Below are positions 25,157-48,631 of a stretch of DNA of 64,000 bases, one piece after another (position 1 is the stretch's first letter; every line of letters begins with the position of its first letter). The position numbers and the translations under genes are program-made. Source of the DNA: Brenneria alni (GTDB lineage Bacteria; Pseudomonadota; Gammaproteobacteria; Enterobacterales; Enterobacteriaceae); assembly GCF_003666245.1 (NCBI RefSeq), contig NZ_MJLZ01000008.1:1-64000 (forward strand). Reading direction: 5' to 3'. A model generated the notes under the pieces. The model did not search any database. It was not told the DNA's origin and saw only the letters and a program-made list of their open reading frames with translations.

Positions 25157-25235
25157 CATAAAAAAACCGAGTCAGCTTTTTAGGGCGTAACTCGGTATCT
25201 TTGGGGAATTTAGCGCTTATCGACGATGATGGGAA
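25157..25235 (-). promoter_or_regulatory. Late promoter-terminator module, copy A
   Basis: On the minus strand: TTCCCA (25235-25230), 17-bp spacer ending AAGCGC, -10 TAAATT (25212-25207), then CCCCAAAGATACCGAGT and a terminator stem ACCGAGT/ACTCGGT with seven T. The same arrangement is at 34930, 41984 and 48556. The -35 is the weakest of the four. It lies upstream of the KilA-N and large polyvalent genes. Confidence 0.65.
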
Positions 25236-25237
25236 GA

Positions 25238-25265
25238 GGTTTATCCCCGCGAGTGCGGGGAACAC
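25238..25265 (-). CRISPR. Solitary type I-E CRISPR repeat-like unit (no array)
   Basis: Read on the minus strand, 28 bases match the enterobacterial type I-E repeat: GTGTT, stem CCCCGC, loop ACTC, stem GCGGGG, then ATAAACC, which is the 5' handle of I-E crRNA except that the following base is T instead of G. Only the loop differs clearly from common enteric repeats. It begins at the base after the stop codon of the upstream gene, and no second repeat or cas gene is nearby. Single repeats in phages are known as possible RNA anti-CRISPRs (Racr). Confidence 0.7.
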
Positions 25266-25475
25266 TTATCCTTCTCGTTTCCTCGCCCCAGCTTCCACTT
25301 GATGAACGAGAATAGACAGATGGGCCAGTATACTTTCAGCCTCGAAATCGTCCGGGCGCGCAGGTCCGATCCTGCCCTGACACACGAACGAGTTGATGAT
25401 GATCGCAGCATCTTCCAATGTATTGATGGAAGTACCATCAATACCGTCAATATTCCCAGAATCTTCGTCGCGCAT
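25266..25475 (-). CDS. Hypothetical small acidic protein downstream of ant
   Basis: 69 residues from the ATG at 25475 (TGGAG in front; a GTG at 25499 in the same frame is less likely). It is acidic at first (MRDEDSGNIDGIDG) and mostly helical after; no family recognised. It is the last gene of the arc-ant operon. Its stop codon is immediately followed by the solitary CRISPR repeat. Given that neighbour it could be an anti-defence protein, but nothing in the sequence itself shows this. Confidence 0.55.
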   Translation of the reverse strand: MRDEDSGNIDGIDGTSINTLEDAAIIINSFVCQGRIGPARPDDFEAESILAHLSILVHQVEAGARKREG

Positions 25476-25524
25476 TTGTTTCTCCAGTTTAAAGAACACA
25501 GGCCCTATGTTACCGGCATCTACA

Positions 25525-26376
25525 CTAGCCCCGATTTCTCTCCAGTCCGCGCCGCACAGTGTTGACGATGGCGCAGGAGTCCCGGATGCGATCCATTAGC
25601 TCGTAGGCCAGCGGTGAGCGCACGGCTTTCAGCGCCGGGTAAAGTTCACTGCCCCACACCCGCCAGATATATTCGATATGCCCGCAAGCAATTCCGATGT
25701 TGTGTATTTCCATGCTTAGATCCACGGATGGTTCTGGCGTGGGCAGGAAGACGGGCGGCATGAGTTCGCCTTCCAGCGGTACGCGCGCCGCCAGCGACAG
25801 AGCCTCCGCAAACTGGCTTTCCTCAATTTCCTTGTAACTGACGCCAAAGTGGGATTTCAACGCTGACCACATCGTAATCATCGCTTTAGCTTGGCGATCT
25901 TTTGGTAAGGCCTTGCCGCGATTCATCACCAACTGCTTGATGGCCTCCTGCTGTTCGAAGGTAATTTTACCGAGTAAAGCTTTCTTGGTTTTGCTGTATA
26001 CGCCGTTCTTACGAATGGATGGCAGTACTTCAGCCGTCACCCATTTACGAAACTTATGAGGAACAGAACCTGGTTTAATGGCATCGCGGCAGCGAAGAAC
26101 CAGTGTATACATGCCAGACTCGGATACAGTTGCTACTTCTTGGTTTCCTCCAAGGGTGTAAGTTAAAGTTACACCCTTTTCATCTTTATCAAGCGCGGTA
26201 AGAGCTTTCCGTGAGTTGGTGAGAGAAAGAGCATCACAAACATCCTTCGCAACGAACCACGGCTCGCCGCCTTTGTTTATGACACGGATCTCTTTCTCGC
26301 CAAATGTAAAAGTGGTGAGTTCTCCAGCGATCATGGGGACTGTGCTTGTTGCGCTGTTTGCTGTTACACTATTCAT
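25525..26376 (-). CDS. ant: Antirepressor with Bro-N domain (P22 Ant-like)
   Basis: 283 residues from the ATG at 26376 with AAGGAA in front. The N-terminal Bro-N domain (about 15-120) is clear: TTFTFGEKEIRVINKGGEPWFVAKDVCDALSLTN, then SESGMYTLVLRCRDAIKPGSVPHKFRKWVTAEVLPSIRKNG. A phage-specific C-terminal region follows. Next to arc- and mnt-type genes it completes a P22-like immI locus. Ant of that type inactivates phage repressor and so drives induction or overcomes immunity. Its expression should be limited by the Arc-like protein encoded just upstream. Confidence 0.85.
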   Translation of the reverse strand: MNSVTANSATSTVPMIAGELTTFTFGEKEIRVINKGGEPWFVAKDVCDALSLTNSRKALTALDKDEKGVTLTYTLGGNQEVATVSESGMYTLVLRCRDAIKPGSVPHKFRKWVTAEVLPSIRKNGVYSKTKKALLGKITFEQQEAIKQLVMNRGKALPKDRQAKAMITMWSALKSHFGVSYKEIEESQFAEALSLAARVPLEGELMPPVFLPTPEPSVDLSMEIHNIGIACGHIEYIWRVWGSELYPALKAVRSPLAYELMDRIRDSCAIVNTVRRGLERNRG

Positions 26377-26404
26377 GTCTATTTCCTTGTGGGGATTGGA
26401 CAAA

Positions 26405-26587
26405 TCAGAAGCCCTGGCTATTTCGAGTAGTCAGGGCTTCGCCATTTTTATTCAAATGCTCGACAAGAACCTGAATAATTTCAGAGTTCATCGAACGTCC
26501 ATTACGCGCTGCAATGCGCTTTAATCCATCTTTAACTTGTTGAGGAATCCGGAGATTCGTCTGTGGCATTGCCCTAGTCGGCATCAT
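26405..26587 (-). CDS. arc: Arc-like ribbon-helix-helix repressor
   Basis: 60 residues from the ATG at 26587 (GAGGTG just upstream). Contains a ribbon-helix-helix fold: strand MPQTNLRIPQQVKDGLKRIAARNGRSMNSEIIQVLVEHL. In P22, Arc represses ant and mnt transcription. It is the first gene of the ant operon, 28 bases before ant, and divergent from a second ribbon-helix-helix gene across an operator region with palindromic sites. Confidence 0.85.
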   Translation of the reverse strand: MMPTRAMPQTNLRIPQQVKDGLKRIAARNGRSMNSEIIQVLVEHLNKNGEALTTRNSQGF

Positions 26588-26606
26588 GTTCACCTCTGCG
26601 CCTCAG

Positions 26607-26653
26607 TGATAGTACGGTACTACGACTTGAACTGTAGTATTACCGAACTATCA
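26607..26653. promoter_or_regulatory. Arc/Mnt-type operator region between divergent repressor genes
   Basis: Two related half-palindromes face each other: TGATAGTACGGTACTAC (26607-26623) and GTAGTATTACCGAACTATCA (26634-26653). The second, read backwards, gives TGATAGTTCGGTAATACTAC, close to the P22 arc operator type with TGATAG at one end and CTAC at the other. The region holds the divergent promoters of the arc-ant and mnt-type transcripts, so both repressors are likely to act here. Confidence 0.6.
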
Positions 26654-26681
26654 TGTCAATATGATTTTTTGAGGCTAACAA

Positions 26682-26987
26682 ATGGCTAGAACAGATCCAC
26701 AATTCAACGTTAGGATGCCAGCTGAACTAAAGGAAAAATTAGTTCGTATGGCCGAATCCCGTAACCGCTCGATAAATGCGGAAATCATCAGCGCCATTGA
26801 AGCTGCGGTACAATTACATGAGTTGACGGAAGGGCTACACGGGACTGAGTACATTACAACCACCATAACTGTCAAAGATCCCCGCGTTATAGAGCAGCCA
26901 GATCCTGCTCACTCATCGGAAGATTTTCTCCGGCTCATGCTTGAAAAGCTCAATGACATTGAAAAGAAAATAGACAATAAGGAATAG
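26682..26987 (+). CDS. mnt: Mnt-like Arc-family DNA-binding repressor
   Basis: 101 residues. The N-terminal ribbon-helix-helix (FNVRMPAELKEKLVRMAESRNRSINAEIISAIEAA, about 8-43) is followed by a linker and a helical C-terminal part (EDFLRLMLEKLNDIEKKIDNK) that probably mediates oligomerisation, as in Mnt. Mnt in P22 represses ant in the lysogen. It is divergent from arc-ant, the P22 immI arrangement. GAGG precedes the ATG. The next gene starts three bases after its stop. Confidence 0.85.
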   Translation: MARTDPQFNVRMPAELKEKLVRMAESRNRSINAEIISAIEAAVQLHELTEGLHGTEYITTTITVKDPRVIEQPDPAHSSEDFLRLMLEKLNDIEKKIDNKE

Positions 26988-26989
26988 AC

Positions 26990-27472
26990 ATGTATTCCAT
27001 GAAAAAATTTTTACTTTTATCTTGTTTTTTTATACCTCAAGCTACACTGGCCGAAACCTATGAGATTTCAGTAACAAGAGATTCAAGCAACGTTTATCGC
27101 ATTGATGGGAAAAACTCTATCATTCATACTAAATATTGTTATGTATATGCTTATTCTGAAAATGCCTATCTTCGTACCGATGGGTATAACAATCAGTTAA
27201 TATTCATAGATAGCAAAGATTCATGCGATGTGTCAGGAGTTTATGGGGAAAATGAAATAAAAAATGGATCATACGAAGTAAAAGTCAGCCGTGAAGATGA
27301 TGACTGGTATAATATATGGGGAACTGACCACTTCATAAAAACATCAATGTGTCTTAATCTTGCGTTAATGGACGATGCCATACTAAGAATAAATGGCATG
27401 CGTGGAGATCTTATTTTTAACAATGGCAGCCAATGCCAAGCAGAGAATATATATTCTAAAATAAAACTTTAA
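26990..27472 (+). CDS. Exported protein with two tandem repeats
   Basis: 160 residues. Signal peptide (about 1-21, ending ATLA), then two related ~65-residue units: TYEISVTRDSSNVYRIDG...TKYCYVYAYSENAYLRTDG...LIFIDSKDSC and SYEVKVSREDDDWYNIWG...TSMCLNLALMDDAILRING...LIFNNGSQC. Each has two Cys, probably one disulfide per unit. No family recognised. The gene is AT-rich and directly follows mnt, where P22 carries sieA. Expression in the lysogen and a role at the cell envelope, such as superinfection exclusion, are plausible but inferred. Confidence 0.7.
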   Translation: MYSMKKFLLLSCFFIPQATLAETYEISVTRDSSNVYRIDGKNSIIHTKYCYVYAYSENAYLRTDGYNNQLIFIDSKDSCDVSGVYGENEIKNGSYEVKVSREDDDWYNIWGTDHFIKTSMCLNLALMDDAILRINGMRGDLIFNNGSQCQAENIYSKIKL

Positions 27473-27486
27473 AAAGGAATTTCAAA

Positions 27487-27867
27487 ATGGCTAACTTATT
27501 TAAACTATACACACTTCTTTCATCTGCGCTAATTTTATCCTCTTGCGCATCAAACCCACGCATAGAATATCTATCAGGAGAACAACGCAGTAAAGCTATC
27601 AATATGGCTGTATATAAAAACAACCCTTTCTCTGATGCCACCATAATAAAAACTGTAGACGGATTATCCTGTAACCGGAACAAATATCAAGCACAGGATA
27701 TTTCTGAATCAGAGGCTATGGACGGGGTAAAAATAAAAGCGGCGATGCTAAATGCTGATGCCGTCGTAAATACTATTTGCCAGAAAAATTCAGATACTGA
27801 CTGGATAAATAATTGTTGGGCATCAGTGAAATGTATCGGTGATGCTGTCACTGTGCCCCAAAATTAA
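27487..27867 (+). CDS. RcsF-like lipoprotein
   Basis: 126 residues. The signal peptide ends LILSSCAS (lipobox). The mature part follows the RcsF pattern: NPFSDATIIKTVDGLSCNRN, then KIKAAMLNADAVVNTICQ, NNCWASVKCIGDAV. Four cysteines fall where RcsF has its two disulfides, and the closing C-I-G-D-A fits the C-I-G-S-A of RcsF. RcsF is the outer-membrane sensor of the Rcs envelope-stress system. A phage copy could set off Rcs signalling or change the envelope against superinfection. AAGGAA precedes the start; 14 bases from the previous gene; AT-rich. Similarity was judged by eye. Confidence 0.65.
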   Translation: MANLFKLYTLLSSALILSSCASNPRIEYLSGEQRSKAINMAVYKNNPFSDATIIKTVDGLSCNRNKYQAQDISESEAMDGVKIKAAMLNADAVVNTICQKNSDTDWINNCWASVKCIGDAVTVPQN

Positions 27868-27870
27868 GAA

Positions 27871-29196
27871 TTACTGTCCGGTGTAGTAAGGTGGTGCCAC
27901 TGGCTGCCGAGACTGAGCGCGCTCACGCAATTTCTGGGCTGTGTCGGCATCCTTCGCCTGGGTATCCCGTTTTTGTGCTTCGGCATACTTCGCGTCAAGA
28001 TGCTCCTTAGACAGGTTATAGCCTGGAGTGGAAGCCGCGGCGGCGGCAAGCTGTTTAGCATAGGCGATCTTGCCCGGATCACCTGCGGCCCATTGCTGCA
28101 ACACCGGCGTAGTCCGATCTTCTGGCTGCTGACCATGGGCTTGTTTAACCTGATCAAGCAGTTGGTCATACTGAGCATTGATGGTTACAGCGTTGTCTGG
28201 ATCTTTAGCAATCGCTTTATATCTTTCTTTTTCAACATCAAGCAGATCTTTACGCAGCCCTTTCGCTTCTTCACGCACGGTAGCCTTATCTGGCGGGTTA
28301 ACCATGTTATTGATGAACTGTGCACGGTTGCCATCATTTAGCTGGACGACCATCTGTCCGTAACCGCGAACCTCATCCATCAAGCGTGTGACAGGGATCG
28401 GCGCTATCGTATCCTGCGGATCAGAAGAACCATATCGGGTCATTGGCTTGAGCGCTGTCGAACCATCGCTGTACGTGACTTTCAGAGTTGGGATTACGCG
28501 CTGACCATCTTCAGTCAGACCAATGTGAGCAAGCTCTTTACCCTTGATGGTTAAACCAGTAGCCGGATCTTTGTCGCCAATACCGCGTTGAATATGCGGC
28601 GATAATACTTCATTGACGGCGCTGATCGCTGCTGGGTCGTTGTAATCCATATCACCATTAATAACCGCTGGCATAACCCGGTTGATTTCCATTACGTTCT
28701 TGATGGCTTTTTCGCCAAAGAAGCGTTTGGGGTGAAGGGAATTATCCGTTGAAATCAGCTTGTAGAGGTCTGGATCGATGTTTCCCGTTTTTTCAAGCTG
28801 GTCATAGAACATTTTGATGGTAGGCATTTCATCTTTAAGCCGCTGCTGGCGCTTCTGCTCAGAACGTTGATAGGCCAACTCTTCGCGCCGCAACTTTACC
28901 CCTTCGGCTTGCATGGCGTAGGTGCGATCTGAATTTCGCTTATTCAGTTCAAACTCGGTCTGCCACTGCCCATCCCCCACCCTGTAACGCTCTGCCTGCG
29001 TTTCCCGATCTTTGGTGTCGGACTCTTTACGGTAATCAAACGTCTCTCGCTCAAAGTCATAGGCACGATCCGCGTTTTTCTGTTGCTGCTCCAACGACCA
29101 GCGCCGCAGTTCCGATTCTTCACGCCGACTGATAGCTGAATCAACCGTGTTAAACCCGGCCAGAAACCCATCAGCCAATCCTCTTACATCCGCCAT
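27871..29196 (-). CDS. Phage internal virion / structural protein, 441 residues
   Basis: Start at 29196 with GGAGG; a longer in-frame start at 29277 is not supported. The first 130 residues are highly charged and helical (SRREESELRRWSLEQQQKNADRAYDFERETFDYRKES), probably a coiled coil. The rest is soluble and Ala/Asp-rich. No catalytic motif is seen. It sits with four other small helical proteins between the tail genes and immI, the usual place of injected (ejection) proteins in podoviruses. Function is inferred from position only. Confidence 0.65.
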   Translation of the reverse strand: MADVRGLADGFLAGFNTVDSAISRREESELRRWSLEQQQKNADRAYDFERETFDYRKESDTKDRETQAERYRVGDGQWQTEFELNKRNSDRTYAMQAEGVKLRREELAYQRSEQKRQQRLKDEMPTIKMFYDQLEKTGNIDPDLYKLISTDNSLHPKRFFGEKAIKNVMEINRVMPAVINGDMDYNDPAAISAVNEVLSPHIQRGIGDKDPATGLTIKGKELAHIGLTEDGQRVIPTLKVTYSDGSTALKPMTRYGSSDPQDTIAPIPVTRLMDEVRGYGQMVVQLNDGNRAQFINNMVNPPDKATVREEAKGLRKDLLDVEKERYKAIAKDPDNAVTINAQYDQLLDQVKQAHGQQPEDRTTPVLQQWAAGDPGKIAYAKQLAAAAASTPGYNLSKEHLDAKYAEAQKRDTQAKDADTAQKLRERAQSRQPVAPPYYTGQ

Positions 29197-29207
29197 AAAT
29201 CCTCCGA

Positions 29208-29507
29208 TTAAGAAAACAGTGATCCGGCCAATAGCCCAACGGCGGCACCGATGCCCATACCGATAGGGCCAGCCCATGATCCATAGGTCGCCCCCATCGC
29301 TGCCGATGAAGCCCCAATGGATGCACCAGCCGCCGCCCCCATCCCCGCGCCCATTCCCATCGTCTGGTTCTTCATCATCTTCTGCTGCGCTTTCAGTTGC
29401 TCGTTGGCCGCCTCGCGCTGCTGTTCAGCTTCCGACGCCTGCTGCATGCCAGACATTGCCTGTTGGCGCGTTTGCGCCGCGATATCGATTAACCCATATC
29501 CCGCCAT
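29208..29507 (-). CDS. Small Gly/Ala-rich virion protein, possibly membrane-active
   Basis: 99 residues. Charged helical N-half (TRQQAMSGMQQASEAEQQREAANEQLKAQQKMM) then a Gly/Ala/Met-rich hydrophobic C-half (MGMGAGMGAAAGASIGASSAAMG ... GMGIGAAVGLLAGSLFS) that could enter a membrane. Lies among putative ejection proteins, so a role in the DNA channel is possible but not shown. Confidence 0.6.
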   Translation of the reverse strand: MAGYGLIDIAAQTRQQAMSGMQQASEAEQQREAANEQLKAQQKMMKNQTMGMGAGMGAAAGASIGASSAAMGATYGSWAGPIGMGIGAAVGLLAGSLFS

Positions 29508-29514
29508 AAATGCC

Positions 29515-29715
29515 TCATTTAGCCTGCACGTGGCCTTTTTTAACCAATGCGAGGCCTAGCCTCTTGGAGAACTCGTCCATGCCCATAGCGGTGAGAGTTT
29601 CCTCTATATCCCCCCTCGCCAAATCTTTATCAAGCCCCGTGATTTCCGTGCCTTTCACCTGTTTATTCGTCGATTTTTTTTTCAACACATCAATCAGTCC
29701 GTAGTTATTAGCCAT
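29515..29715 (-). CDS. Small hypothetical phage protein, 66 residues
   Basis: Begins MANNYGLIDVLKKKSTNKQ; soluble and basic/helical, no family recognised. It shares the start pattern -YGLID- with the previous gene (MAGYGLIDIA), hinting at a shared short N-terminal motif. Start overlaps the stop of the upstream gene by one base, so it is translationally coupled in the tail/ejection operon. Confidence 0.6.
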   Translation of the reverse strand: MANNYGLIDVLKKKSTNKQVKGTEITGLDKDLARGDIEETLTAMGMDEFSKRLGLALVKKGHVQAK

Positions 29716-30095: not shown

Positions 30096-30103
30096 GATTC
30101 ACC

Positions 30104-30769: not shown

Positions 30770-30777
30770 ATCTCACC

Positions 30778-31143: not shown

Positions 31144-31147
31144 GTAA

Positions 31148-31858: not shown

Positions 31859-31860
31859 AA

Positions 31861-32145: not shown

Positions 32146-33278
32146 TATAAGCCTATCTCTATTCTATTTATGTTGTTTTCGTCCCTTAGAATAATTTCGT
32201 TATTAGTAATATTAAGGCCAACATTATCTGTATTAGACTTAATACTGATCTGCCCTGCTGCCGAAATACTAACCAATTGCCCAAATGTCGCATTCCCCAG
32301 TTCATCAACCGTAAATCCGCCACTTTCTATCTTAGCGGTTTTGATATACGGAGAAACAATTTCAATCCCGACTTTGACGCTATCTGCCATAATAGTTTGC
32401 GCCGCCAGAATTTTAATCACTGCTTCTTTTGCTACAAGTTCATCGAGCACCACTTTTCCATCAACCACTGCAAATGGAATGGCGTATGTACCATCATCGT
32501 TCGGGTTGTTGGGGTCGAATATGAAAACTTGACCAGCGGCGATTGCTACCTGGCTGATGGTGTTTCCGTTGCTGTCCGTTGACGCCACGATCCCGATCCC
32601 GGCAGTGATATCCCCTGCTTGCGCCCTGGTGCTCCACATTGCCTTAACACCGTCAAGATCTGCTATCGCCTGCGTGTTAGTCTGTACCGCCGATGCATTC
32701 TCTTCTATTTTCCCGCTCATTTCTTCAATCAATGGCGAATTATTTAACTGTTCATTGATTACATCAATAATTGATGTTGGGTCAGCATGGGTTTCAGCAT
32801 AGGTCCCAGACGAATCGTTATAGGGACCGGGTTTACCCAGAGAATTAACGTGGCGGATCCAGTAATACCCCTTCCATTCCGGATCGACCGGATCGCCATA
32901 TACTCCCGCCGCTGTCGATGCAATAAGTACGGCGTTCGCCAGATTATCTTCCGGGCTACGATAAATTTCTGTCAGCGATCGCCCCGAATACTGCGGCATA
33001 TCCCATTCCAGCAGGACGTGGGCAAAACCGCCCGTTGCCTTAAAATTGGTTGGCTTTGTTGGGGTCTGCACCTTGCCGTTTGATGATTCGCCGCTGCCAC
33101 CGGTGCTCGGCGTCAACTTCAGTTTGCCACCCAGCGTCCGCAGGTTTGCCAGTCCCAGACTTGCCAAGTCGGCATAGGTTACCGCCCTGCTGCTGCCGTC
33201 GCCGCGCTGGCCGGTCAACGTCTCGATATTGTCCGCGACCGCATCCACGCCGCGCCCAGATCGCCACTTGCTGCTCAT
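32145..33278 (-). CDS. Tail tip / central fibre protein, related to the C-terminal part of lambda J
   Basis: 377 residues from the ATG at 33278, with AGGAG nine bases upstream. A fibronectin-like domain (about 75-150: PTNFKATGGFAHVLLEWDMPQYSGRSLTEIYRS, then GYYWIRHVNSLGKPGPYN) is followed by helical segments and the DUF1983-type region (about 215-330) with VKAMWSTRAQAGDITAGIGI and QTIMADSVKVG. These are pieces of siphovirus tail-tip protein J. Here they stand next to podovirus-like connector and nozzle genes. Probably contacts the receptor. Confidence 0.72.
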   Translation of the reverse strand: MSSKWRSGRGVDAVADNIETLTGQRGDGSSRAVTYADLASLGLANLRTLGGKLKLTPSTGGSGESSNGKVQTPTKPTNFKATGGFAHVLLEWDMPQYSGRSLTEIYRSPEDNLANAVLIASTAAGVYGDPVDPEWKGYYWIRHVNSLGKPGPYNDSSGTYAETHADPTSIIDVINEQLNNSPLIEEMSGKIEENASAVQTNTQAIADLDGVKAMWSTRAQAGDITAGIGIVASTDSNGNTISQVAIAAGQVFIFDPNNPNDDGTYAIPFAVVDGKVVLDELVAKEAVIKILAAQTIMADSVKVGIEIVSPYIKTAKIESGGFTVDELGNATFGQLVSISAAGQISIKSNTDNVGLNITNNEIILRDENNINRIEIGL

Positions 33279-34900
33279 GCTGGCATCTCCTGCATTGATG
33301 TGGCCAGCGTGATGCGATCTATCTGGGCACTGCCGTATACCCCAATTTGCCAACGCTTGCCACGCAGCGGCGGGAGTTTTAATAGCGACTCACGAATACT
33401 TCCAGGTGGCAGGTGAAGAACTGATTTACCATCAGCATGTAGAATGACGCCAATCTGCGACAGCGCCCCGCTCATTATTCGAAGACAAGAAAATGCGGTA
33501 TTCGATGGAGCAAGATAGATCTTCGACCGCCAACGGCAATTAACCGGCAACGCGCCATCGCCCAGCGTATAAAGTTGCTTTCCTTTGACGATATACAGCG
33601 TATCCCCTGACTCATCGTTGTAGGCAGCGTCGAACGTGGTGGTAATGCGCCGGATATCCATGCTGACCGGATCGAAAATAAACCCAGCGACACCTGTATC
33701 AATGTCATAAAGTGCCAGATATTCATTTTCTACCCGCCATGCACGGATAGTTGACGGATTAAAATCCCTGCGCCATTGCTTTGCTTCAATGATATTCGCT
33801 GTGGCAATTTCAGCGGCACCTGCGGCACTGACGGATACCAATCCATTGGGTGAGGCATACAGCGCAAACCCATCCATCGTGACCATGCTTTGCCGGGACA
33901 CACAGGACAAAGCTATAATCGGGTGATTGGAAGTGATATTGGATGGTGTGATACCAGAAAAAATGTATGGAATACCTTTTGTTCCGACAACCAGTGTAGT
34001 ACCGACAGGGGTGATAGCGACGATCTCATCCTGCGTCGTCTGCTTGTTCGAGTCCTTCCATGCGTACGGTAGGTAAGCCTCACTGAACATCACCTGGTTA
34101 CCCATAAACCCGGCAGCAATACCATTGCTCATCATACACAGGCCAATCATGCCATCGGGAGGCATGAAATAATCGTAGGTTTCCAGCGACGCGCTCAGTT
34201 CAGCATTGGTCAGATCGTCAACAAATGAGGCAACGGCAATCTCCAGTTCTGCCACCAGCAGATAATCGGCAGATTCGGTACTGGTTGCCGAGCGATAAAT
34301 GCGTCGATGGGTGATATTGTTATTCTGCGCTCCGGGCGGTTGTAACGTCAGCGTGACGGTGCTGTTGGGGTAAACAATGGTTATCTCCGCCGATGCGGGG
34401 CCGGGAGGACCTTCTTCACCATACGCCGTAACATAGGTTTCGGTGTAATAGCGGGTTTCATCGTCCGTCGCGTCGTCCTCGTCTGCATCCTCCGGCGGCG
34501 TGATATCACCGATAACAATTGGATTGGCCGGTGCAGGAATGCCGAGACGGTAGTATGCCGCCGGGTAATTGCCATTGCCTGCCGTCGCAATTTGAGCGCC
34601 TGTAACCTTCGGAAATTCACCGTCTGTGTAATACACGCGCCCATAGTCATCGTTGGCGACCGGGCTGCGAATGGCGTCAACAATCTTATTCCAGGCAAAC
34701 CAGAAATTGTCCCGATAGTGGAAAATGGTTTGCGGCGCGATAGGGAATGCCTTTTCCCGATCTTTATCGTCTTGCATCGGAGTGATAACGCCGTGCCGGA
34801 AATGGCAGCCCTGCGCCAATGTTGCATTGGATTCAGGCAATATGTGCCCAACGACACGCGGCATCTCGCCACGCATCGTGGTGATATCAATTGTCGCCAT
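33275..34900 (-). CDS. Tail nozzle / tail hub protein, 541 residues
   Basis: Begins MATIDITTMRGEMPRVVGHILPESNATLAQGC. The protein is beta-rich with repeated segments such as GVIPYIFSGI, GFALYASPNGLVSVSAAG and YLALYDIDTGVAGFIFD, as expected for a beta-propeller. It resembles nozzle or stabilisation proteins (T7 gp12, P22 gp10) of short-tailed phages. The fold is inferred from pattern, not from a search. It is the first gene after late promoter module B. Confidence 0.68.
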   Translation of the reverse strand: MATIDITTMRGEMPRVVGHILPESNATLAQGCHFRHGVITPMQDDKDREKAFPIAPQTIFHYRDNFWFAWNKIVDAIRSPVANDDYGRVYYTDGEFPKVTGAQIATAGNGNYPAAYYRLGIPAPANPIVIGDITPPEDADEDDATDDETRYYTETYVTAYGEEGPPGPASAEITIVYPNSTVTLTLQPPGAQNNNITHRRIYRSATSTESADYLLVAELEIAVASFVDDLTNAELSASLETYDYFMPPDGMIGLCMMSNGIAAGFMGNQVMFSEAYLPYAWKDSNKQTTQDEIVAITPVGTTLVVGTKGIPYIFSGITPSNITSNHPIIALSCVSRQSMVTMDGFALYASPNGLVSVSAAGAAEIATANIIEAKQWRRDFNPSTIRAWRVENEYLALYDIDTGVAGFIFDPVSMDIRRITTTFDAAYNDESGDTLYIVKGKQLYTLGDGALPVNCRWRSKIYLAPSNTAFSCLRIMSGALSQIGVILHADGKSVLHLPPGSIRESLLKLPPLRGKRWQIGVYGSAQIDRITLATSMQEMPA

Positions 34901-34929: not shown

Positions 34930-35003
34930 TAAAAAAAGCCCCGCTGTTTAAGGCGAGACTTGGTATCTTTCTGGAATTTAGCGCGTATTATTGATGGGCG
35001 CAA
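34930..35003 (-). promoter_or_regulatory. Late promoter-terminator module, copy B
   Basis: Minus strand: -35 TTGCGC (35003-34998), 17-bp spacer ending ATACGCGC, -10 TAAATT (34980-34975), then CCAGAAAGATACC and a terminator stem AGTCTCGC/GCGGGGCT with seven T. The stem bases differ from copies C and D, but pairing is kept. It lies just upstream of the tail nozzle gene. Confidence 0.7.
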
Positions 35004-39432: not shown

Positions 39433-39458
39433 AGAATTTTCTCCGAATAAAACAGAAA

Positions 39459-39474: not shown

Positions 39475-39489
39475 CGTTAAGGGATGGGA

Positions 39490-40713
39490 TTAGCGACCAG
39501 TGGTGATCGCCGAGTCAACAACGATAATGCCGTGGTCATTCAGGCGGCCATCTTTCTGTTTGAACTGGATCTTCTTCAGACCGTTCACCCAGCGAATCGA
39601 CACTTCCGTACCGTTGCCGTGATCGACCTTCTCTTCGTGATAACCGAAGTGGCCGCCGCCTTCACCGGAACCATAAGCATTCGCCAGCGCCTGGCCGCCC
39701 AGCAGCAATGCGCGGTCAATGGTCGTACCGGCTTCTTTCTGGGATACCGTGGCCGCCAAATCATTATTAGACACGTCTACCACGGAGCCCGCATTAAAGC
39801 GGATCGGCATTCCGGTGTATTTACGCACCAGGATATTTCGCCACATCGCGCATTCGCCCTTAAACAACGGATGATCAAAGCCTTTAGAGCGTTGAATAGC
39901 GCGGGACAGCATCGCCTGCCAGTCCTTGCCAGAGGTAGAGGTGTACCAGTCATTCCACTGGCGCGGCGTCACGTTCAGGACGAAGTAAGGATCCTCGTTC
40001 GCCATTTCGTCTTTCGACATTTTGACCGGCTGAAGCGGATGCGCCATTTCATCAATGAACAATGACAGGTTATCCACTACCGACAGCGAGAACAGATCGG
40101 CTGCGTCCAGACCTTCAAACGTGGTCGCGTCACCGGCATAGAAGTGGCGGTCGTAGGTGGGCGGCAGTACATCATTAATCATGATTTTGCCGAACTCATG
40201 GTGACTGGCCAGCGGCAGGATGGTGTCATCAGCAATGAAGTCACCGCGGGCGCCAGCCAGATGAACAGTACCGCACTGATCTTGGAGGTCATTGAAGTAC
40301 GTCCCCAGCAGAGTACGTGCGGTTTTGTTCAGGTTATGCTTGAAGCGCTGCTCTGACATTTTGCCGCCAGCATCCACCAGGTGACGGCCCTGATTGATCT
40401 TTAACGAGAAATCGGCGAATGCCAGATTTTCACCTCGGCCTGCCAGCTTCTCATCGCCCATCGTCGGACGCTTGGACAGCTTATGGACGATCTGCATATC
40501 CACTTCATCGCCTTTGTTCTTTTGCAGATCGGTGATGCGCACTACCGGCGCGGTGTAACTGGTTTGTTTAACGCCTTTTTTATCCGGCGTAACAGCTTTC
40601 GGCGCTTCCTGCTGTTCCGTCATGATGTTGACGAAAGAGCGATTGCGATTGGCTGCAGTAAACAGCGCAACCTGCATCAACTTATTCGCCTGGGCAGTGG
40701 TAATTGTCGTCAT
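39490..40713 (-). CDS. Major capsid protein (N4 gp56 / DUF4043 family)
   Basis: 407 residues. Features of the N4-gp56-type capsid family: MTTITTAQANKLMQVALFTAANRNRSFVNIM at the start, the segment MQIVHKLSKRPTMGDEKLAGRGENLAFADFSLKINQGRH, and GTEVSIRWVNGLKKIQFKQKDGRLNDHGIIVVDSA at the end. Should have the HK97 fold. It lies between the scaffold and decoration-like genes, in the usual order. AGGGAG stands before the start. Confidence 0.88.
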   Translation of the reverse strand: MTTITTAQANKLMQVALFTAANRNRSFVNIMTEQQEAPKAVTPDKKGVKQTSYTAPVVRITDLQKNKGDEVDMQIVHKLSKRPTMGDEKLAGRGENLAFADFSLKINQGRHLVDAGGKMSEQRFKHNLNKTARTLLGTYFNDLQDQCGTVHLAGARGDFIADDTILPLASHHEFGKIMINDVLPPTYDRHFYAGDATTFEGLDAADLFSLSVVDNLSLFIDEMAHPLQPVKMSKDEMANEDPYFVLNVTPRQWNDWYTSTSGKDWQAMLSRAIQRSKGFDHPLFKGECAMWRNILVRKYTGMPIRFNAGSVVDVSNNDLAATVSQKEAGTTIDRALLLGGQALANAYGSGEGGGHFGYHEEKVDHGNGTEVSIRWVNGLKKIQFKQKDGRLNDHGIIVVDSAITTGR

Positions 40714-40734
40714 ATTGACTCCCTAAAAATGAAA

Positions 40735-40754
40735 AACCCGCACGCGGCGGGTTA
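40735..40754 (-). terminator. Hairpin between scaffold and capsid genes
   Basis: Minus strand AACCCGCCGCGTGCGGGTTTTT: stem CCCGC/GCGGG with a T run. Located between scaffold stop and capsid start. Confidence 0.55.
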
Positions 40755-40772
40755 TGAGTTAACAGTTTTCAA

Positions 40773-41822
40773 TCAGATGACTTGTTCTAACAACGCCTCA
40801 ATCTGTGCGTCTGTCATACCCGCAAACATGGCCTGTAACTGTTCAGGATCGGCATTCGCCGCCTGTTCGAGTGGTGACGCGGCGCTGCTGCTGGTTGTTG
40901 AACCGACATCTGACGGCGAGGCGGGTAATTGCGCAGCCGCTGTTGCCAGTGCGGCGGCGGCTTTTTTCTGAATCTCTTCGGCTGTCGGCTGTTTGGCATC
41001 CTGCGGAGGTGCACTCTCCACAGCTTCACCGTATGCAGCGCGAGTACGTTTAGCGACTTCGCCAAATCGTTCAGCGAGTGGTTTGCCTTTCCATACGGGG
41101 TCATTTTTGAGTGTTTCATCAATGTGAACGGCTAGCGTAAAGCGATCCGGATCGCCGGTCTGCCAGGCTTTCAAATCCGGCGTTGCGTCGAGAGCGGACA
41201 TAACAGGGTCAGCACCGGAGGACTGCTGCGCCGCTGGCGCTGCCGGTTGCTGTTCCTGCAGGTACTCCACTTTCTGCACCAGCGCATCCAACACGCCAGC
41301 AAGTTCAGGAAATGAATCACGCACACCATCTATCTGCTCCGGCGTAATCTGGGTTTTTTCGGGTAACTGTGCAGGCTGTAATCCGGCTGCGTTGATTTGG
41401 CGCGTGAGCACGTCAAGCTGACGCTTCGTTTCCGCCAGTTCAGCGGCGGTGCGCTGACTGGATTGTGCCAGACGTTGCTTATCGGCGCGTTCCGCTTCCA
41501 GCACGCCATACGGAATGACATGTTTACCATCGCGGCTCAGAATGCCTTTAGGCAAACTATCCCCTTCCGGCCCGGCTGTTTCAGCCCCGGTCTGTTGAGT
41601 ACCAACCTGTTGTTCAGCAGTTACGTCCGGCGTCGACGTATTGGTATCGCCCTTGTTTTCCTGCTGCGTTAATGGGTTGGTTTTCGCTGCCAGATCGCCA
41701 GCGTTTACAGTCGTATCTGCGGCGGACGTATCAGAAACCTCCACGTCACCGATGCTATCCAGCAATGCTTCCAGTTCTTCCGGGGTTTCGTTACCTGTTA
41801 AATTCTCAATATCGATGCTCAC
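40773..41822 (-). CDS. Scaffold (prohead assembly) protein
   Basis: 349 residues, acidic, Gln/Ala-rich, low-complexity. Contains a long coil (LEAERADKQRLAQSSQRTAAELAETKRQLDVLTRQINAAG, about 110-150) and ends with a short helical segment (ADPEQLQAMFAGMTDAQIEALLEQVI). Its position directly before the major capsid gene and its composition are those of phage scaffolds. Confidence 0.8.
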   Translation of the reverse strand: MSIDIENLTGNETPEELEALLDSIGDVEVSDTSAADTTVNAGDLAAKTNPLTQQENKGDTNTSTPDVTAEQQVGTQQTGAETAGPEGDSLPKGILSRDGKHVIPYGVLEAERADKQRLAQSSQRTAAELAETKRQLDVLTRQINAAGLQPAQLPEKTQITPEQIDGVRDSFPELAGVLDALVQKVEYLQEQQPAAPAAQQSSGADPVMSALDATPDLKAWQTGDPDRFTLAVHIDETLKNDPVWKGKPLAERFGEVAKRTRAAYGEAVESAPPQDAKQPTAEEIQKKAAAALATAAAQLPASPSDVGSTTSSSAASPLEQAANADPEQLQAMFAGMTDAQIEALLEQVI

Positions 41823-41935
41823 GTTATGACTCCTGCACGTCTATTTGTCGGATAGATCCGAAAGGGTTGAGGCGTATCGCTGCCCATGCGAATAAGCGCG
41901 CTGTTGCCAAAGCGCTTATCGGCACAAACAAAAAC

Positions 41936-41951
41936 GCCCTCCGAAGAGGGC
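41936..41951 (-). terminator. Second terminator downstream of module C
   Basis: Minus strand GCCCTC-TTCG-GAGGGC followed by GTTTTTG. With the terminator in module C this makes two terminators in the leader of the scaffold gene. Confidence 0.65.
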
Positions 41952-41983
41952 GAGGACGGACCAACAACAAGGGATAATCAGGC

Positions 41984-42060
41984 ATAAAAAAACCGGAGCA
42001 GCTTTTAAGGCATACTCCGGTATCTTTCTGGAATTTAGCGCGTATTTATTTTTAGTGCAA
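41984..42060 (-). promoter_or_regulatory. Late promoter-terminator module, copy C
   Basis: Minus strand: -35 TTGCAC (42060-42055), 17-bp spacer ending ATACGCGC, -10 TAAATT (42037-42032), CCAGAAAGATACC, terminator stem ACCGGAG/CTCCGGT and seven T. The hairpin and its loop are nearly identical to copy D at 48556. It lies between portal and scaffold genes. Confidence 0.72.
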
Positions 42061-42063
42061 TAC

Positions 42064-44187: not shown

Positions 44188-45902
44188 CAATGTGACATCC
44201 AGTGAGAGGGTTTAGATCGGTCGATAGGTTTGGGTTTCGGACGCGCCGGCATACGGGCGCGCATTTCCTGTGCGATGGCGTAGCTCATGACCTGATCGTC
44301 AAAACAGCCGGTTTGCGCATTCATCCGGCCTTTCGGGTCATAAACATAGGTGTTCAGTTCATTGATGGTGCCGATCCAGCGAATGCCAGACACGTTTTCA
44401 CGTAACAGGGTTTTCAATCCCTCAACCACAATCGGCTTACTCTGCTTCGTGGTGAGCCAGCCGAGTTTAGGCGTCTCATCATCGTTATCGCGATCAAGGT
44501 ATTGCTCGGCGTAAATAGCGCGCACCGGATAAATATCACGCAGCTTCTGCAATACTGCATGACCATGATTGTTACGTTCCGGGCCAATGAAGGCGGTGTT
44601 ATACCAGGTGCCGATATGCGCCAGCAGTTGAGCGAACAACTCCGCATCCAGATGACCGAACCAGTGCGCCATCTGTTCGCCGTTAGATTTTTTCACCACG
44701 TCAAATGATGATCGGTCGCCGTTTTCCAGCCCCTCTGCAATGTCCGCGCCAATGGCGTAATCTTCATCAGGATCCGGCAGTTCCCAAACCAGCAGATGAT
44801 TTTGTAACGTGCGCTGAAGCTCTTCTTTGTCGCCCCCGCGCAACGCCTGAACTTTTAAGCGCTGGCCTGTAACCGGTTCCACATCATAAACAATCGCCGG
44901 AGGCTTACACTTCCCTTCGGCTTTCATTACGTTAATCGCCGGGAACACGCGGCGGCCAGAGGTCAGAAAGGCTTCCTGCGGCGTGGAAGGAAATTCCTGT
45001 TTCATTTCCTCGCCCTGCTCAACCTCTTTGCGGATATACCATTGCTTTTGCTCATCACTCAGCGTGACGTGCATGGTTTCTTCTACCGCCGCGAAGTACT
45101 CCTGATGGTATTTGCTCAGGCGCAGGCCACCTGCCGGAACAGGCGCAACATATTTCGGATCGTCAAACCACGGATAGAAATGAAACTTATAATCCTGCAT
45201 CGTCAACTCAATGCCGGACTGCGCCAATTCTAAAGCGCGGGTGCTCATGGTATGAAAATCGCCGCCAACGCCTTCCGCTGTGGACTCATCGAACACAATA
45301 CAACCATCATGTACCGCGTTCAGCGTACCGGTACGCACCTCTTTGGCCTTCGCAGGATACTTGGCGCAGATTTTACCGTGCTCGGAAATATGCAGCCGTT
45401 GAACCGTGCCGGAGCGGAAGGACGTCGCCACCTGAATACTGGAACCATGCGAAAACAGGATGTAACCGCCGTTGGCACCGCTGCGCCGCTCATTGATCTT
45501 GAATGTCGAACGCAACCAACCCGGCAGATTGTCAAAAGGTATCGATATCTTGGTACGGAAAATTTCACCGGCGGCAACTTTGTCCTGCGCGATGATCCCG
45601 CATTTCAAGTTCTTGTTGAACAGCGCCTGGTCAAGCAGATAGATATCAATCGCGGTGGAAAATCCCAACTGGCGCGCCTTGAGAATGATGTTTCGGTAAT
45701 GCATGTTCTGGAACAGCCGACGCTGCGCCGGACGCATCCTAAACGTGACCAGTTGGCCTTTCTCGTTCTCAATCTTATACAGATTGTTGAGCCGCCACCA
45801 CGGATTGCTCAGTTTGGACAAAACAAAAAGGCGCTGCTGCGCCTCGGTCATACTGTCCAGTTCGTCTTCAACCAAACCGGCATCGTAATGCGGTGTTGTC
45901 AT
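44187..45902 (-). CDS. Terminase large subunit
   Basis: 571 residues. ATPase part: Walker A-like KARQLGFST (75-83), Walker B-like RLHISEHGKI with Ser-Glu in place of the usual Asp-Glu, coupling segment FDESTAEGVGGDF. Nuclease part: GADIAEGLENGDRSSF with the first catalytic Asp, and GPERNNHGHAV, CFDDQVMSYAIA further on. Packages DNA into proheads together with the small subunit, whose gene overlaps its start by four bases. Confidence 0.9.
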   Translation of the reverse strand: MTTPHYDAGLVEDELDSMTEAQQRLFVLSKLSNPWWRLNNLYKIENEKGQLVTFRMRPAQRRLFQNMHYRNIILKARQLGFSTAIDIYLLDQALFNKNLKCGIIAQDKVAAGEIFRTKISIPFDNLPGWLRSTFKINERRSGANGGYILFSHGSSIQVATSFRSGTVQRLHISEHGKICAKYPAKAKEVRTGTLNAVHDGCIVFDESTAEGVGGDFHTMSTRALELAQSGIELTMQDYKFHFYPWFDDPKYVAPVPAGGLRLSKYHQEYFAAVEETMHVTLSDEQKQWYIRKEVEQGEEMKQEFPSTPQEAFLTSGRRVFPAINVMKAEGKCKPPAIVYDVEPVTGQRLKVQALRGGDKEELQRTLQNHLLVWELPDPDEDYAIGADIAEGLENGDRSSFDVVKKSNGEQMAHWFGHLDAELFAQLLAHIGTWYNTAFIGPERNNHGHAVLQKLRDIYPVRAIYAEQYLDRDNDDETPKLGWLTTKQSKPIVVEGLKTLLRENVSGIRWIGTINELNTYVYDPKGRMNAQTGCFDDQVMSYAIAQEMRARMPARPKPKPIDRSKPSHWMSH

Positions 45903-46732
45903 TGCGCCAGCATTCCATCATCCGGCATTGAGTGAATATCACGCACAACATCCGTAAGCGGCGTGGTTACATCTTTGCTTTCCGCCGTCAGTTTTTCCGT
46001 TTCCGCTTTCAACTTGGCGGTGGCCGCCTTGATGCGGTAGGTGTCGGCAGTCAGCCGGGGAACATTCACCGCATCAAGCTGCAATTTACTCAGGCTGTTT
46101 TCCAGCGATTCGATACGGGCAATGTTGCGATCAAGCCCCTGCTCGGCTTTGAGCATTTTGTCATACAGATCGATACGGGTTTCAACGTCCGGCGCGTTCT
46201 GTAAATCCTCCATTATTTTGTTCAACGTCTTGGTGACAGACAGTGCGCGGGCGCGGGTGAAAATTAGTTCGTCGCGCAGATCGGATTCTTTGGCGGCGTC
46301 GAAAAGTTCGTCGGCGTGGAGGTATTGGGCGTAGGCGCCGTGCTTTGTAGCGTATTGATGACCTTTCACAAACGGGCTGACAACATTGGGATTGCCGGGG
46401 TTGCCTTCCGTGAAGCGCCCTTTTTCATCCCGCCCGTTTAATCCCGCTTCTGGCCTTGAGGCGTCGGCACCGTCGTCGAACGCGTCCGTCGATTCATCTT
46501 CATCGTCCCGTTGTACATTCCCGCCTTTTGCGCATTTCTGCGCACTTTTACCTTTCTGCGCACTGTGCGCAGTTTTGCGCACTTTCTTCTGCGCAGAACG
46601 GGGCTTGATGTACCGACGTGCCGACTGATAGTTAAGACCATGTTCCTCACACCACTGTTGGGCGGTGATACCAGTCTCCGCATTATCAGCCAGAAAAGCT
46701 GCCAGCAATGCATCCCAATCGTGTTTTGCCAT
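45899..46732 (-). CDS. Terminase small subunit
   Basis: 277 residues. An N-terminal helix-turn-helix-like part (MAKHDWDALLAAFLADNAETGITAQQWCEEHGLNYQSARRYI) is followed by a basic linker with repeated SAQK, an acidic stretch (DDEDESTDAFDDGADAS), the terS-type phrase GRFTEGNPGNPNVVSPFVKGHQYATKHGAY, and a C-terminal coiled coil. The linker codons contain six TGCGCA sites. Directly upstream of terL. Confidence 0.85.
   Translation of the reverse strand: MAKHDWDALLAAFLADNAETGITAQQWCEEHGLNYQSARRYIKPRSAQKKVRKTAHSAQKGKSAQKCAKGGNVQRDDEDESTDAFDDGADASRPEAGLNGRDEKGRFTEGNPGNPNVVSPFVKGHQYATKHGAYAQYLHADELFDAAKESDLRDELIFTRARALSVTKTLNKIMEDLQNAPDVETRIDLYDKMLKAEQGLDRNIARIESLENSLSKLQLDAVNVPRLTADTYRIKAATAKLKAETEKLTAESKDVTTPLTDVVRDIHSMPDDGMLAQ
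46529..46595. repeat. Cluster of six TGCGCA palindromes in terS, possible packaging site
   Basis: TGCGCA at 46529, 46539, 46557, 46566, 46576 and 46590: six copies in 67 bases. Phages that package from a pac site often carry it within or near terS. However, the protein repeat SAQK is encoded here and explains some copies (tctgcgcag). The site role is therefore tentative. Confidence 0.4.
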
Positions 46733-46752
46733 AACGTCCTACTGAATAAACA

Positions 46753-46941
46753 TTATCGAACCACCTCTGGGAAGTGGCTCTGTAATGCCTTACTCCGAGC
46801 ATTCCGGTTGAGGTTCGAACGCCAAGTCGATATTCCCTTTGCGGCTGCCAAAATTTCTAATGTGCTGGCCACCAACCGACCGCGCTCATCTCTGCGAGCA
46901 GCAGACATTAGGGCGCTGGATATTAGTTCGCGTTGTCTCAT
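46753..46941 (-). CDS. Small hypothetical protein before terS, 62 residues
   Basis: MRQRELISSALMSAARRDERGRLVASTLEILAAAKGISTWRSNLNRNARSK..., basic and helical. TGAGGA lies six bases before the ATG, a good ribosome-binding site, and terS starts 20 bases after its stop. No family recognised. Could be a small DNA-binding or packaging accessory protein. Confidence 0.5.
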   Translation of the reverse strand: MRQRELISSALMSAARRDERGRLVASTLEILAAAKGISTWRSNLNRNARSKALQSHFPEVVR

Positions 46942-47014
46942 GCAAATCCTCAGTTAATGATTTGCACATACTGTATATAAACACAGCAACAGGAGCATCT
47001 CTACTTTAGTCCAG

Positions 47015-47557
47015 CTATTGCAATGCTCGGTTTGATTCCTCAGCCCCTCTTATGCCAGCCAATTGTGTGTTTGCTTGTTCAATGGCAGTCAGTAACGGGT
47101 CAATCCAATAAACCGCCTGCCCATACGTCAATCGGCAGTCGGAGGCAACGGCACCAGAACCGGCTGTGTCAGTTCCGCCGGCAGTGGCGTGCATTGCGCT
47201 GGCACGTAAACGGTGCGCGTAGTCGAGCAACCGACCAGCGACATCATCAGGCACGCACTGGCGGCCAGCCGGGTCTTTCTTGATGATCGTCCGGTAGATA
47301 ATTTGTTTTTCATCGGATTGACCTTTGATGTTGATTGCGTACTGATTGGCTTGCCTTGCGATTTCGTTATAGCGCTGAAACTGGAACGCCTGTCCTGCGA
47401 TGATCGACTGCTGACTGGCGCTGACATCATCGGCTTGGGCTTTATCGCGCTCCGCAATATCCGCATCCCAGCGCAATCCCTGCACATACCACCCGGCGCC
47501 GAACGCAGCCGCCAGCGCGCCGCCGATCAGCAGCAGCTTAGTTTTCGTGGATAGCAT
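47015..47557 (-). CDS. Rz: Rz-like inner-membrane spanin
   Basis: 180 residues. N-terminal membrane anchor (TKLLLIGGALAAAFGAGWYVQGL, about 6-28) then a periplasmic coiled-coil region (ERDKAQADDVSASQQSIIAGQAFQFQRYNEIARQAN). It follows the endolysin gene and holds an Rz1 frame inside it, the classical spanin layout. It fuses inner and outer membrane in the last lysis step together with Rz1. Confidence 0.85.
   Translation of the reverse strand: MLSTKTKLLLIGGALAAAFGAGWYVQGLRWDADIAERDKAQADDVSASQQSIIAGQAFQFQRYNEIARQANQYAINIKGQSDEKQIIYRTIIKKDPAGRQCVPDDVAGRLLDYAHRLRASAMHATAGGTDTAGSGAVASDCRLTYGQAVYWIDPLLTAIEQANTQLAGIRGAEESNRALQ
47128..47313 (-). CDS. Rz1: Rz1-like outer-membrane lipoprotein spanin, embedded in Rz
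   Basis: 61 residues in another frame within Rz. Signal peptide with lipobox SLVGC (Cys29), then a short Pro-rich mature part (STTRTVYVPAQCTPLPAELTQPVLVPLPP), typical of Rz1. The ATG at 47313 has AAAGGT nine bases upstream. Entirely nested in the Rz gene, as in lambda. Confidence 0.82.
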   Translation of the reverse strand: MKNKLSTGRSSRKTRLAASACLMMSLVGCSTTRTVYVPAQCTPLPAELTQPVLVPLPPTAD

Positions 47558-47669
47558 GGTTTACCTGTTAAAAAGTGAAGGGATTGATGATGGCGAGTGA
47601 TTCAGATTTTGCGTAGCGTTATCAAATCACGGTTAATTTGAACATTTAATAACCAAACCGGAACGATAT

Positions 47670-48218
47670 TCAAAAGTTTAAGCAAAGTGCCTTTTCTTTC
47701 TCGCGCCGAGTAACCAGTCCCGCCAGGATTTCTTTTCCTGCATAAATCCATCGCGGCAATTGATTGCAGGCCGCCGTGTACGCCTGGTTAATCAAGTGGC
47801 GATACATCGTAGACCTAAGAAATTTCGTGCATCCGACATTAAAAATAAAACTCCCAATCCCATCGAATACACCTTGCGGCAATTGCTTTCCCAGCTTTCG
47901 CTCTACATTGGCCTCAATACAGTTCTGTGCATCCAGTTGATCTTCAGCAAACCACTGCGCGATTTGCTGATCGCTGGCCTGAGCAACCATACCCGAACCT
48001 TTCCCTGTGTGGCCGATGCCTTGCGTAACGATTTTTGCCGGACACAAATACGGATCCCGACGGCAACCTTCGGCATTGCCCATCACTTCCATTGCAGCCT
48101 GGCTGAAGCGTAAGCTGTTTCCGGTCGCAGATTTATACTGTTCAGCGTTGTTCAGTACAATGCCAATAATCACGCTAACGGAACAGACAATGGCAGCCGC
48201 GATTTTACGTTCAGCCAT
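47670..48218 (-). CDS. SAR endolysin (GH24 lysozyme)
   Basis: 182 residues. Weakly hydrophobic N-terminal signal-anchor-release segment (AAAIVCSVSVIIGIVL, about 7-22). Catalytic Glu50 in GNAEG, Cys59 at the place of the T4 Asp20, and Thr65: the spacing 9/6 equals that of T4 lysozyme (11/20/26). The Glu/Cys/Thr form is known among SAR endolysins. Fits with the pinholin directly upstream: release from the membrane when it is depolarised starts lysis. Confidence 0.88.
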   Translation of the reverse strand: MAERKIAAAIVCSVSVIIGIVLNNAEQYKSATGNSLRFSQAAMEVMGNAEGCRRDPYLCPAKIVTQGIGHTGKGSGMVAQASDQQIAQWFAEDQLDAQNCIEANVERKLGKQLPQGVFDGIGSFIFNVGCTKFLRSTMYRHLINQAYTAACNQLPRWIYAGKEILAGLVTRREKEKALCLNF

Positions 48219-48220
48219 TC

Positions 48221-48469
48221 TTATTCCCCAGCCTTCAGATTAAATTCCTTGCGTTTGTAGTACCAATTCAACGCAAACGTACCGATGGTGCATACCATGC
48301 CGACGATGATTGCCCAATCACTCAGCGTTAATACTGAAATAGCGTCAAATAACTGCCACGATGGTTGATTAGTTACCGATGAATATGCCTTTTCTGATAC
48401 GCCTGCGCCCGTTAAAGCGGTCCCGGTTCCATATGACAACTTGCTATATATCGAGCTCATTCGCCTCAT
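48221..48469 (-). CDS. Pinholin (phage 21 S-like) with dual start
   Basis: 82 residues from 48469, or 79 from the second Met at 48460. The start MRRMSSIYSKLSYGTGTALTGAG recalls phage 21 S (MKSMDKISTGIAYGT...). Two hydrophobic segments: a mild first one (about 15-30, Gly/Ser-rich) and a stronger second one (about 55-73, DWAIIVGMVCTIGTFALNWYY), then a basic tail. Two Met with two Arg between them look like the holin/antiholin dual start. A GGTGAGG site lies before the first ATG. Ends two bases before the endolysin start. Confidence 0.78.
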   Translation of the reverse strand: MRRMSSIYSKLSYGTGTALTGAGVSEKAYSSVTNQPSWQLFDAISVLTLSDWAIIVGMVCTIGTFALNWYYKRKEFNLKAGE

Positions 48470-48510
48470 AGCCTCACCCCCGATTGTTCGGATGGCGCTG
48501 TGGTAGGAAA

Positions 48511-48540
48511 TAAAAAAACCTGCTGGGCGAACCATGCAGG
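48511..48540 (-). terminator. Second terminator in the late leader
   Basis: Minus strand CCTGC (48540) / GCAGG (48519) around a 12-base loop, then seven T. It follows the terminator of module D, so the lysis genes lie behind two terminators. Confidence 0.65.
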
Positions 48541-48555
48541 CTTGAGGACTGACCA

Positions 48556-48631
48556 ATAAAAAACCGGAGCAGCTTTTAAGGCATACTCCGGTATCTTTGG
48601 GGAATTTAGCGCGTATAGAGATTCAGGTCAA
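48556..48631 (-). promoter_or_regulatory. Late promoter pR'-like with leader terminator, module copy D
   Basis: Minus strand, directly after the Q gene: -35 TTGACC (48631-48626), 17-bp spacer ending ATACGCGC, -10 TAAATT (48608-48603), then CCCCAAAGATACC and a terminator stem ACCGGAG/CTCCGGT with six T. This is the place and design of a Q-controlled late promoter: a constitutive promoter whose short transcript stops at once unless Q loads. The ACGCGC in the spacer is kept in copies B, C and D, and could be the Q-binding element. Confidence 0.75.

Follow-up and report, generated by a model that had tools for sequence, protein, structure and literature searches.

The window analysed here comprises the first 64,000 nucleotides (nt) of contig NZ_MJLZ01000008.1 of Brenneria alni and contains a lambdoid podovirus-type prophage with its late genes on the minus strand, along which four copies of a short module, designated D, C, B and A, are found. 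The gene order runs from O-/P-type replication genes, NinB and other early genes to a Q-like antiterminator gene (TIGR02642/phrog_127; 48638–49522, minus strand, conserved reading frame from about 49453), and on to holin, endolysin, Rz and terminase, followed by portal, capsid, tail and internal virion proteins and a giant protein of 2612 amino acids. The Q-like gene, after the early genes and ahead of the lysis genes, lies directly upstream of module D. An earlier interpretation made from the sequence alone (the sequence-only reading) had taken the modules for Q-type promoter-terminator repeats, which the present analysis supports. The modules stand ahead of the lysis, capsid, internal virion and giant protein genes, with a KilA-N gene after module A.

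All four modules are on the minus strand and follow a common plan: a -35-like hexamer, 17 base pairs (bp), (A)nGCGC-TAAATT, 4 bp, AAAGATACC and a terminator. Module D (48558–48631), before the holin gene, has its -35 TTGACC at 48631–48626, its -10 TAAATT at 48608–48603, its predicted pause box AAAGAT at 48598–48593 and its terminator at 48591–48558. In module C (41986–42060), between portal and the p479 and major capsid protein genes, the corresponding elements are TTGCAC at 42060–42055, then 42037–42032, 42027–42022 and 42020–41986; in module B (34931–35003), before the internal virion protein gene, TTGCGC at 35003–34998, then 34980–34975, 34970–34965 and 34963–34931; and in module A (25160–25235), before the KilA-N and giant protein genes, TTCCCA at 25235–25230, then 25212–25207, 25202–25197 and 25195–25160. 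The main stem starts 7–9 nt past the first A of AAAGAT. The core ATACGCGCTAAATTCCnnAAAGATACC is matched with 0, 0, 0 and 1 mismatches in D, C, B and A, respectively (the single mismatch, in A, giving AAGCGC), the next-best match on either strand of the window having 8 mismatches, and a shorter core, CGCTAAATTCCnnAAAGATACC, matches with up to two mismatches at these four sites only in the whole 4.13 Mb assembly. The places proposed for the modules by the sequence-only reading, and the spacing of exactly 17 bp between the four hexamers and TAAATT, are therefore borne out, and the extra terminators that it had noticed behind copies D and C are both visible in the sequence, at 48512–48540 (CCTGC...GCAGG and a T run) and 41930–41952 (CGCCCTC...GAGGGCG and a T run), respectively, both on the minus strand. 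Scanning the window for TTG-N17-TAnnnT with a stem and T run recovers modules D, C and B (0.0 expected on the minus strand) together with a single weak plus-strand site (0.3 expected), expectations being means of 20 first-order shuffles; module A, with its hexamer TTCCCA, is missed. Rfam at gathering scores gave no match in the 24–50 kb part of the window.

The product of the Q-like gene scores 290.2 bits against the NCBIfam model TIGR02642, above the curated cut-off of 101.4, is assigned by PHROGs to the Q-like phrog_127, and its model matches lambda Q (7ubn_Q), indicating the lambda Q fold. TIGR02642 (PF27659) is a 'hypoth_equivalog' without a function name, and the name was not found in the literature searched. 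Among 369 class-level genomes, 56 contain a match to TIGR02642, of which the window's own is the only one above cut-off; the other 55 were set aside, as they mostly cover the zinc-finger stretch only (G718 matching elsewhere) and are probably DnaJ-like. A scan for a bridging Q (P0088, ∼42% identity) gave no locus. A diverged TIGR02642-like Q of 30% identity is found in Pasteurella phage Pmp11 (L109:19630), which has a single TTGACT-17-TAAGAT module with a close terminator, without a GCG box.

Copies of the module associated with a Q 64–100% identical to that of the window (class I) were fetched by the core only, as 60 distinct stretches, and reduced to 47 by dropping a coding chance match (in L083) and removing copies with near-identical upstream 40 nt. 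Since the -35 was not used to find these copies, its signal is unbiased by the search: the first T is present in 46/47, the second T in 43/47 and the G in 33/47, and TTG occurs at spacing 17 in 33/47, compared with 0–3/47 for each alternative spacing between 5 and 29. Farther upstream, columns -69 to -31 carry about 0.1 bit each. Downstream, AAAGAT in the initial transcribed region is present in all 47 copies, which were selected by the core, and a hairpin at a T run follows the predicted start in all 30 distinct leaders obtained from them. The T run ends 36–44 nt from the first A of AAAGAT, which is the predicted RNA length, and the leaders fold with a mean z of about -4.9 relative to mononucleotide shuffles. 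Stems occur as CCGGAG/CTCCGG, CCGAGT/ACTCGG and CCGAAG/CTTCGG, and also as AAGCCTCGC/GCGGGGCTT, AAGCCTCGC/GCGAGGCTT and AAGCCTCACC/GGTGGGGCTT, variants that, judged by eye, appear to be compensatory changes.

A scan blind to the core, with the pattern TTGnnn-N17-TAnnnT, stem and T run, covered 577,067 bases lying downstream of the 63 Q genes that an alignment of 11 sequences had identified. It gave 94 matches at 17 bp, 0–3 at each other spacing from 12 to 22 and one on the reverse strand, with two matches in 34 loci, one in 26 and none in 3; many of the 63 loci are related, and the 94 matches are not 94 independent events. GCGCTA or GCGTTA stands at the -10 in 94/94 matches, although the pattern does not demand it, and this conserved GCGY box is a candidate for the Q-binding element between -35 and -10.

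The sequence-only reading had also proposed searching related prophages, and in most relatives both the pattern and its places relative to genes are kept. All 11 class I viral records, reached by the exact core, contain 2–4 copies on one strand per record (at most three mismatches); six have four copies, the five with two or three are records of 10.9–49 kb, and one record (G010) repeats part of another (G001). A loosened core is present in 8 of 392 host-family genomes, three of which (G000, G252 and G379) have four copies, and four named genomes found through Q (one Brenneria, three Pectobacterium) have 4, 5, 6 and 5 core matches. Three of the surplus matches (two in G405, one in G406) are scattered 3-mismatch sites, and the fifth match in G404, found on a contig apart from the others, looks like a genuine copy. 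Duplicates were counted once (G008 is the window's own prophage, G405 is G006 and G406 is G252), and D, C, B and A could be assigned in ten Pectobacterium/Brenneria-type phages. Among records with a second Q type (55–64% identical, proteins of that identity being named mainly from Serratia and Yersinia), five of nine have four copies, three of the five with one stray 3-mismatch match each, two of these on the other strand; the backward control gave one match in one record. The remaining four records have one or two copies, and the sequence of two of them (G796 and G800) breaks off shortly after the match. The other two (G802 and G803), whose Q is 55% identical and whose portal-to-p601 region is complete, have D before holin and C between portal and p479. 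In the Aeromonas type, with a Q 20–30% identical, three copies are found in 21/21 records by a first pattern (six in a record with two prophages), two records also showing an A copy and the backward control giving one match in one record. An A copy is present in 20/21, the exception being a 40 kb fragment (G786), and TTG stands at 17 bp in 22/22 A copies, all close relatives. In this type the distance from the Q match to the D copy ranges from 61 to 7555 nt. All four modules of phiARM81mr are at annotated junctions; in the other Aeromonas records places were assigned by order and spacing only.

The gene after a module is conserved as well. In 57 of 59 modules it is homologous to the gene that occupies the corresponding slot in the window; one further module was assigned from the gene upstream of it, and the last has no assigned place. 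Module C corresponds in the window to p479 (phrog_479; 40773–41822, minus strand, as are the genes below), the first capsid-block gene, which precedes the major head protein gene (39490–40713); p479 follows 16 modules at 195–245 nt, core to match. The internal virion protein (phrog_511; 33275–34900), first after module B, follows 13 at 72–84 nt. The giant protein (phrog_616; 16591–24429), preceded in the window by the KilA-N gene (24505–25104), follows 11 at 74–125 nt, and KilA-N and then the giant protein follow 2. Holin (48221–48556), first of the lysis genes with endolysin (47670–48218) and Rz (47015–47557), follows 10, at 55–57 nt in 8/10, and Rz follows 5; the lysis genes and p479 were assigned by PHROGs. 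The upstream gap, by comparison, varies widely (27–885 nt from portal, 30–816 nt from Q), indicating that extra sequence sits just upstream and that the module is tied to the gene it would drive. In the ten phages, identity over -14 to -1 is 0.95 for the same place across phages and 0.93 across places within a phage, and that of AAAGATACC is 0.99 in both comparisons, whereas the upstream flank, at 0.35 and 0.27, is near chance. One trans-acting factor reading all four copies would best fit this pattern of selection. A recent-duplication origin was rejected, as flanks differ among copies and position is kept.

Taken together, the promoter grammar, AAAGAT, the terminator, the adjoining Q-fold gene and the places kept in most relatives suggest that each module is a predicted sigma-70 promoter with pause box and terminator, likely loading the TIGR02642 Q, so that the prophage would have four Q-dependent late starts (probability roughly 0.85). 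Without Q, polymerase would start at each module, pause with sigma70 on AAAGAT and stop at the terminator, so that each module would yield one short transcript of about 40 nt. With Q reading the GCGC box beside the -10, the paused polymerase would be modified, pass the terminator and transcribe the next block of roughly 7–10 kb. Each terminator would also halt unmodified polymerase coming from upstream, and cargo genes situated immediately before modules, like the four blocks themselves, might thus be insulated in the lysogen and switched on together after induction. The +1 base, the reading of GCGC by Q and the activity of all four sites we infer from sequence patterns. A more far-reaching version, which replaces the single read-through operon by a four-station regulon in which Q is reloaded every 7–10 kb and the stations insulate cargo (an immI-like Ant/Arc set and a solitary CRISPR repeat) from late read-through in the lysogen, is tentative, its chances falling a little short of even.

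Several observations weigh against four Q-dependent starts. Conservation of the core is partly circular, the core having fetched the class I copies, which does not apply to the -35 or the core-blind scan; the latter found no match at 3 of the 63 Q loci (L148, L169 and L170). In the Q profile search DnaJ chains (5.6e-7) outscore lambda Q, because a zinc-finger motif is common to both. Q type and box type covary only between two related groups, and their covariation is therefore not an independent test. Among the ten phages, TT is missing from the -35 of one B copy, which has GGTTGT, and of four A copies, three with TGTCAT and one with TGTTAT. In G802 and G803 place B holds a terminator only (L339 and L337) and no A copy was seen in the sequence examined; since these genomes keep D and C only, four copies are not universal but a rule with losses in the second Q type. 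Two differences from lambda and HK97 (Q family PF03589) also count here. Their pR' promoters, read as TTGACT-17-TAAATT-TGACTC-AACGAT in lambda and TTGACT-17-TAAATT-TGACATC-AACGAT in HK97, where the terminator hairpin is visible, share with the modules the -10 TAAATT, the 17 bp spacer, a -10-like element after the start and a Q of the same fold. However, the gap between -10 and pause box is 6–7 bp there and 4–5 bp here (3 in the D copy of G803, by eye), and the additional -35-like element of lambda has no counterpart between TAAATT and AAAGAT, where only four bases, such as CCCC, CCAG or CGCG, stand. Apart from these two points, the pause box is AACGAT rather than AAAGAT, the box beside the -10 differs from the GCGC of the window modules, and the terminator is nearer in the window modules than in lambda.

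Textbook Q phages have one late promoter, lambda-type phages usually a single pR' for the late operon. An exact lambda-type pattern in IMG/VR gave, among the matches listed, one match per stretch (80/80, covering 80 of 120 stretches) and no contig twice, which is exact-match evidence only and contrasts with the four modules here. Several Q-loading promoters in one phage were not described in the literature searched (titles and abstract starts in open-licence PMC). A generic scan, requiring the stem to start within 30–35 nt of the -10, gave no match in the phi296 late region, Vibrio 1.205.O, 252E42.2, F116 or Parlo, nor in lambda and HK97; as it misses even the real pR' of the last two, its blanks are no proof of absence there. 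The Traversvirus podovirus phi296 has a homologous portal (71% identity) and virion and giant genes in similar order, but no match to the window Q at E 1e-5, and its late region as examined has terminators after portal and before the giant gene, with no promoter module found. Plain terminators thus stand at module places in phi296 (L074:330–560 and 16520–16620) and, upstream of the internal virion gene, in G802 and G803, suggesting gain or loss of promoters at positions where the terminator was retained. In phage 21, according to the excerpts of PMC6606751 and PMC7171158, Q belongs to family PF06530, its binding element lies between -35 and -10 and the pause is sigma-dependent; that element is a direct repeat of TGAGCA, in contrast to the one GCG box of the window modules.

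The same promoterless terminators, at place B of G802/G803 and two places of phi296, could be accommodated if the modules were activator-switched late promoters and the hairpins ordinary ends of the preceding unit, in the manner of Mu C and P2 Ogr, each of which runs several late promoters from one phage regulator acting at initiation. Here, however, the terminator comes after the predicted start, in 30/30 distinct leaders; no marked conservation of the kind expected for an Ogr- or C-type site was found upstream of -31 in the 47 class I copies; and the regulator encoded next to module D shows the fold of lambda Q, which makes this alternative improbable. It is very improbable that the modules chiefly yield four RNAs of ∼40 nt with the same 5' end, gene control being secondary. 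The near-invariance of AAAGATACC would suit this, and a promoter with a terminator necessarily yields such RNA without Q, but the same bases double as the predicted pause box, stems differ among places and the Aeromonas-type 5' sequences (AAAGATGG, CAACATGG and CATCATGG) vary among copies. That only module D is functional, C, B and A being relics of old duplications, might be argued from its -35, the best of the four (TTGACC in 10/10 phages), and from the reduction of B to a terminator in G802 and G803; yet in those ten phages the core is almost as well preserved in C, B and A as in D, amid randomised flanks, and all four copies persist in an Aeromonas group that has a box of its own, so that we give this idea very little credence. 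A leader RNA that itself makes polymerase termination-proof (HK022 put type), with no protein at the DNA, is scarcely credible, since although a conserved leader starts each late block, it is one variable terminator hairpin rather than the two-stem structure of put, and a large part of the conserved sequence precedes the start, in untranscribed DNA.

The lambda late region is 26 kb long, and recruitment of further Q during transcription is one possibility listed in the excerpt of PMC7171158. Four Q-dependent starts would make this question testable, as the Q-loading site is repeated at fixed gene junctions, and reloading of Q every 7–10 kb, if true, would explain how antitermination can be sustained across more than 30 kb. 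TIGR02642 would gain a predicted job and a predicted DNA target, and two Q/box pairs, with Q proteins about 25–30% identical, are available for a comparison of specificity.

The slot upstream of module A (25525–27867) contains genes for a Bro-N antirepressor and, facing it, an Arc-like repressor (26682–26987, plus strand), as well as one whose RcsF match is below threshold (27487–27867, plus strand), and together they resemble a P22 immI-type set. A solitary type I-E CRISPR repeat, GTGTTCCCCGCACTCGCGGGGATAAACC (25238–25265, minus strand), ends two bases before the -35 of module A and has no second copy in the assembly of 4.1 Mb (at most three mismatches); same-genus genomes G229, G125 and G301 have I-E-like CRISPR arrays. 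The repeat is a candidate RNA anti-CRISPR unit (compare the excerpt of PMC10651486), and the terminator of module A would end its RNA. Elsewhere in the window, the minus strand between 53071 and 57205 carries two consecutive phage DNA methyltransferase genes, of C-5 and Dam type, and beside them an RdgC homolog with an FtsK gamma domain (56057–57205), and a plus-strand gene at 1420–2253 matches the defence protein LmuA weakly (6e-9).

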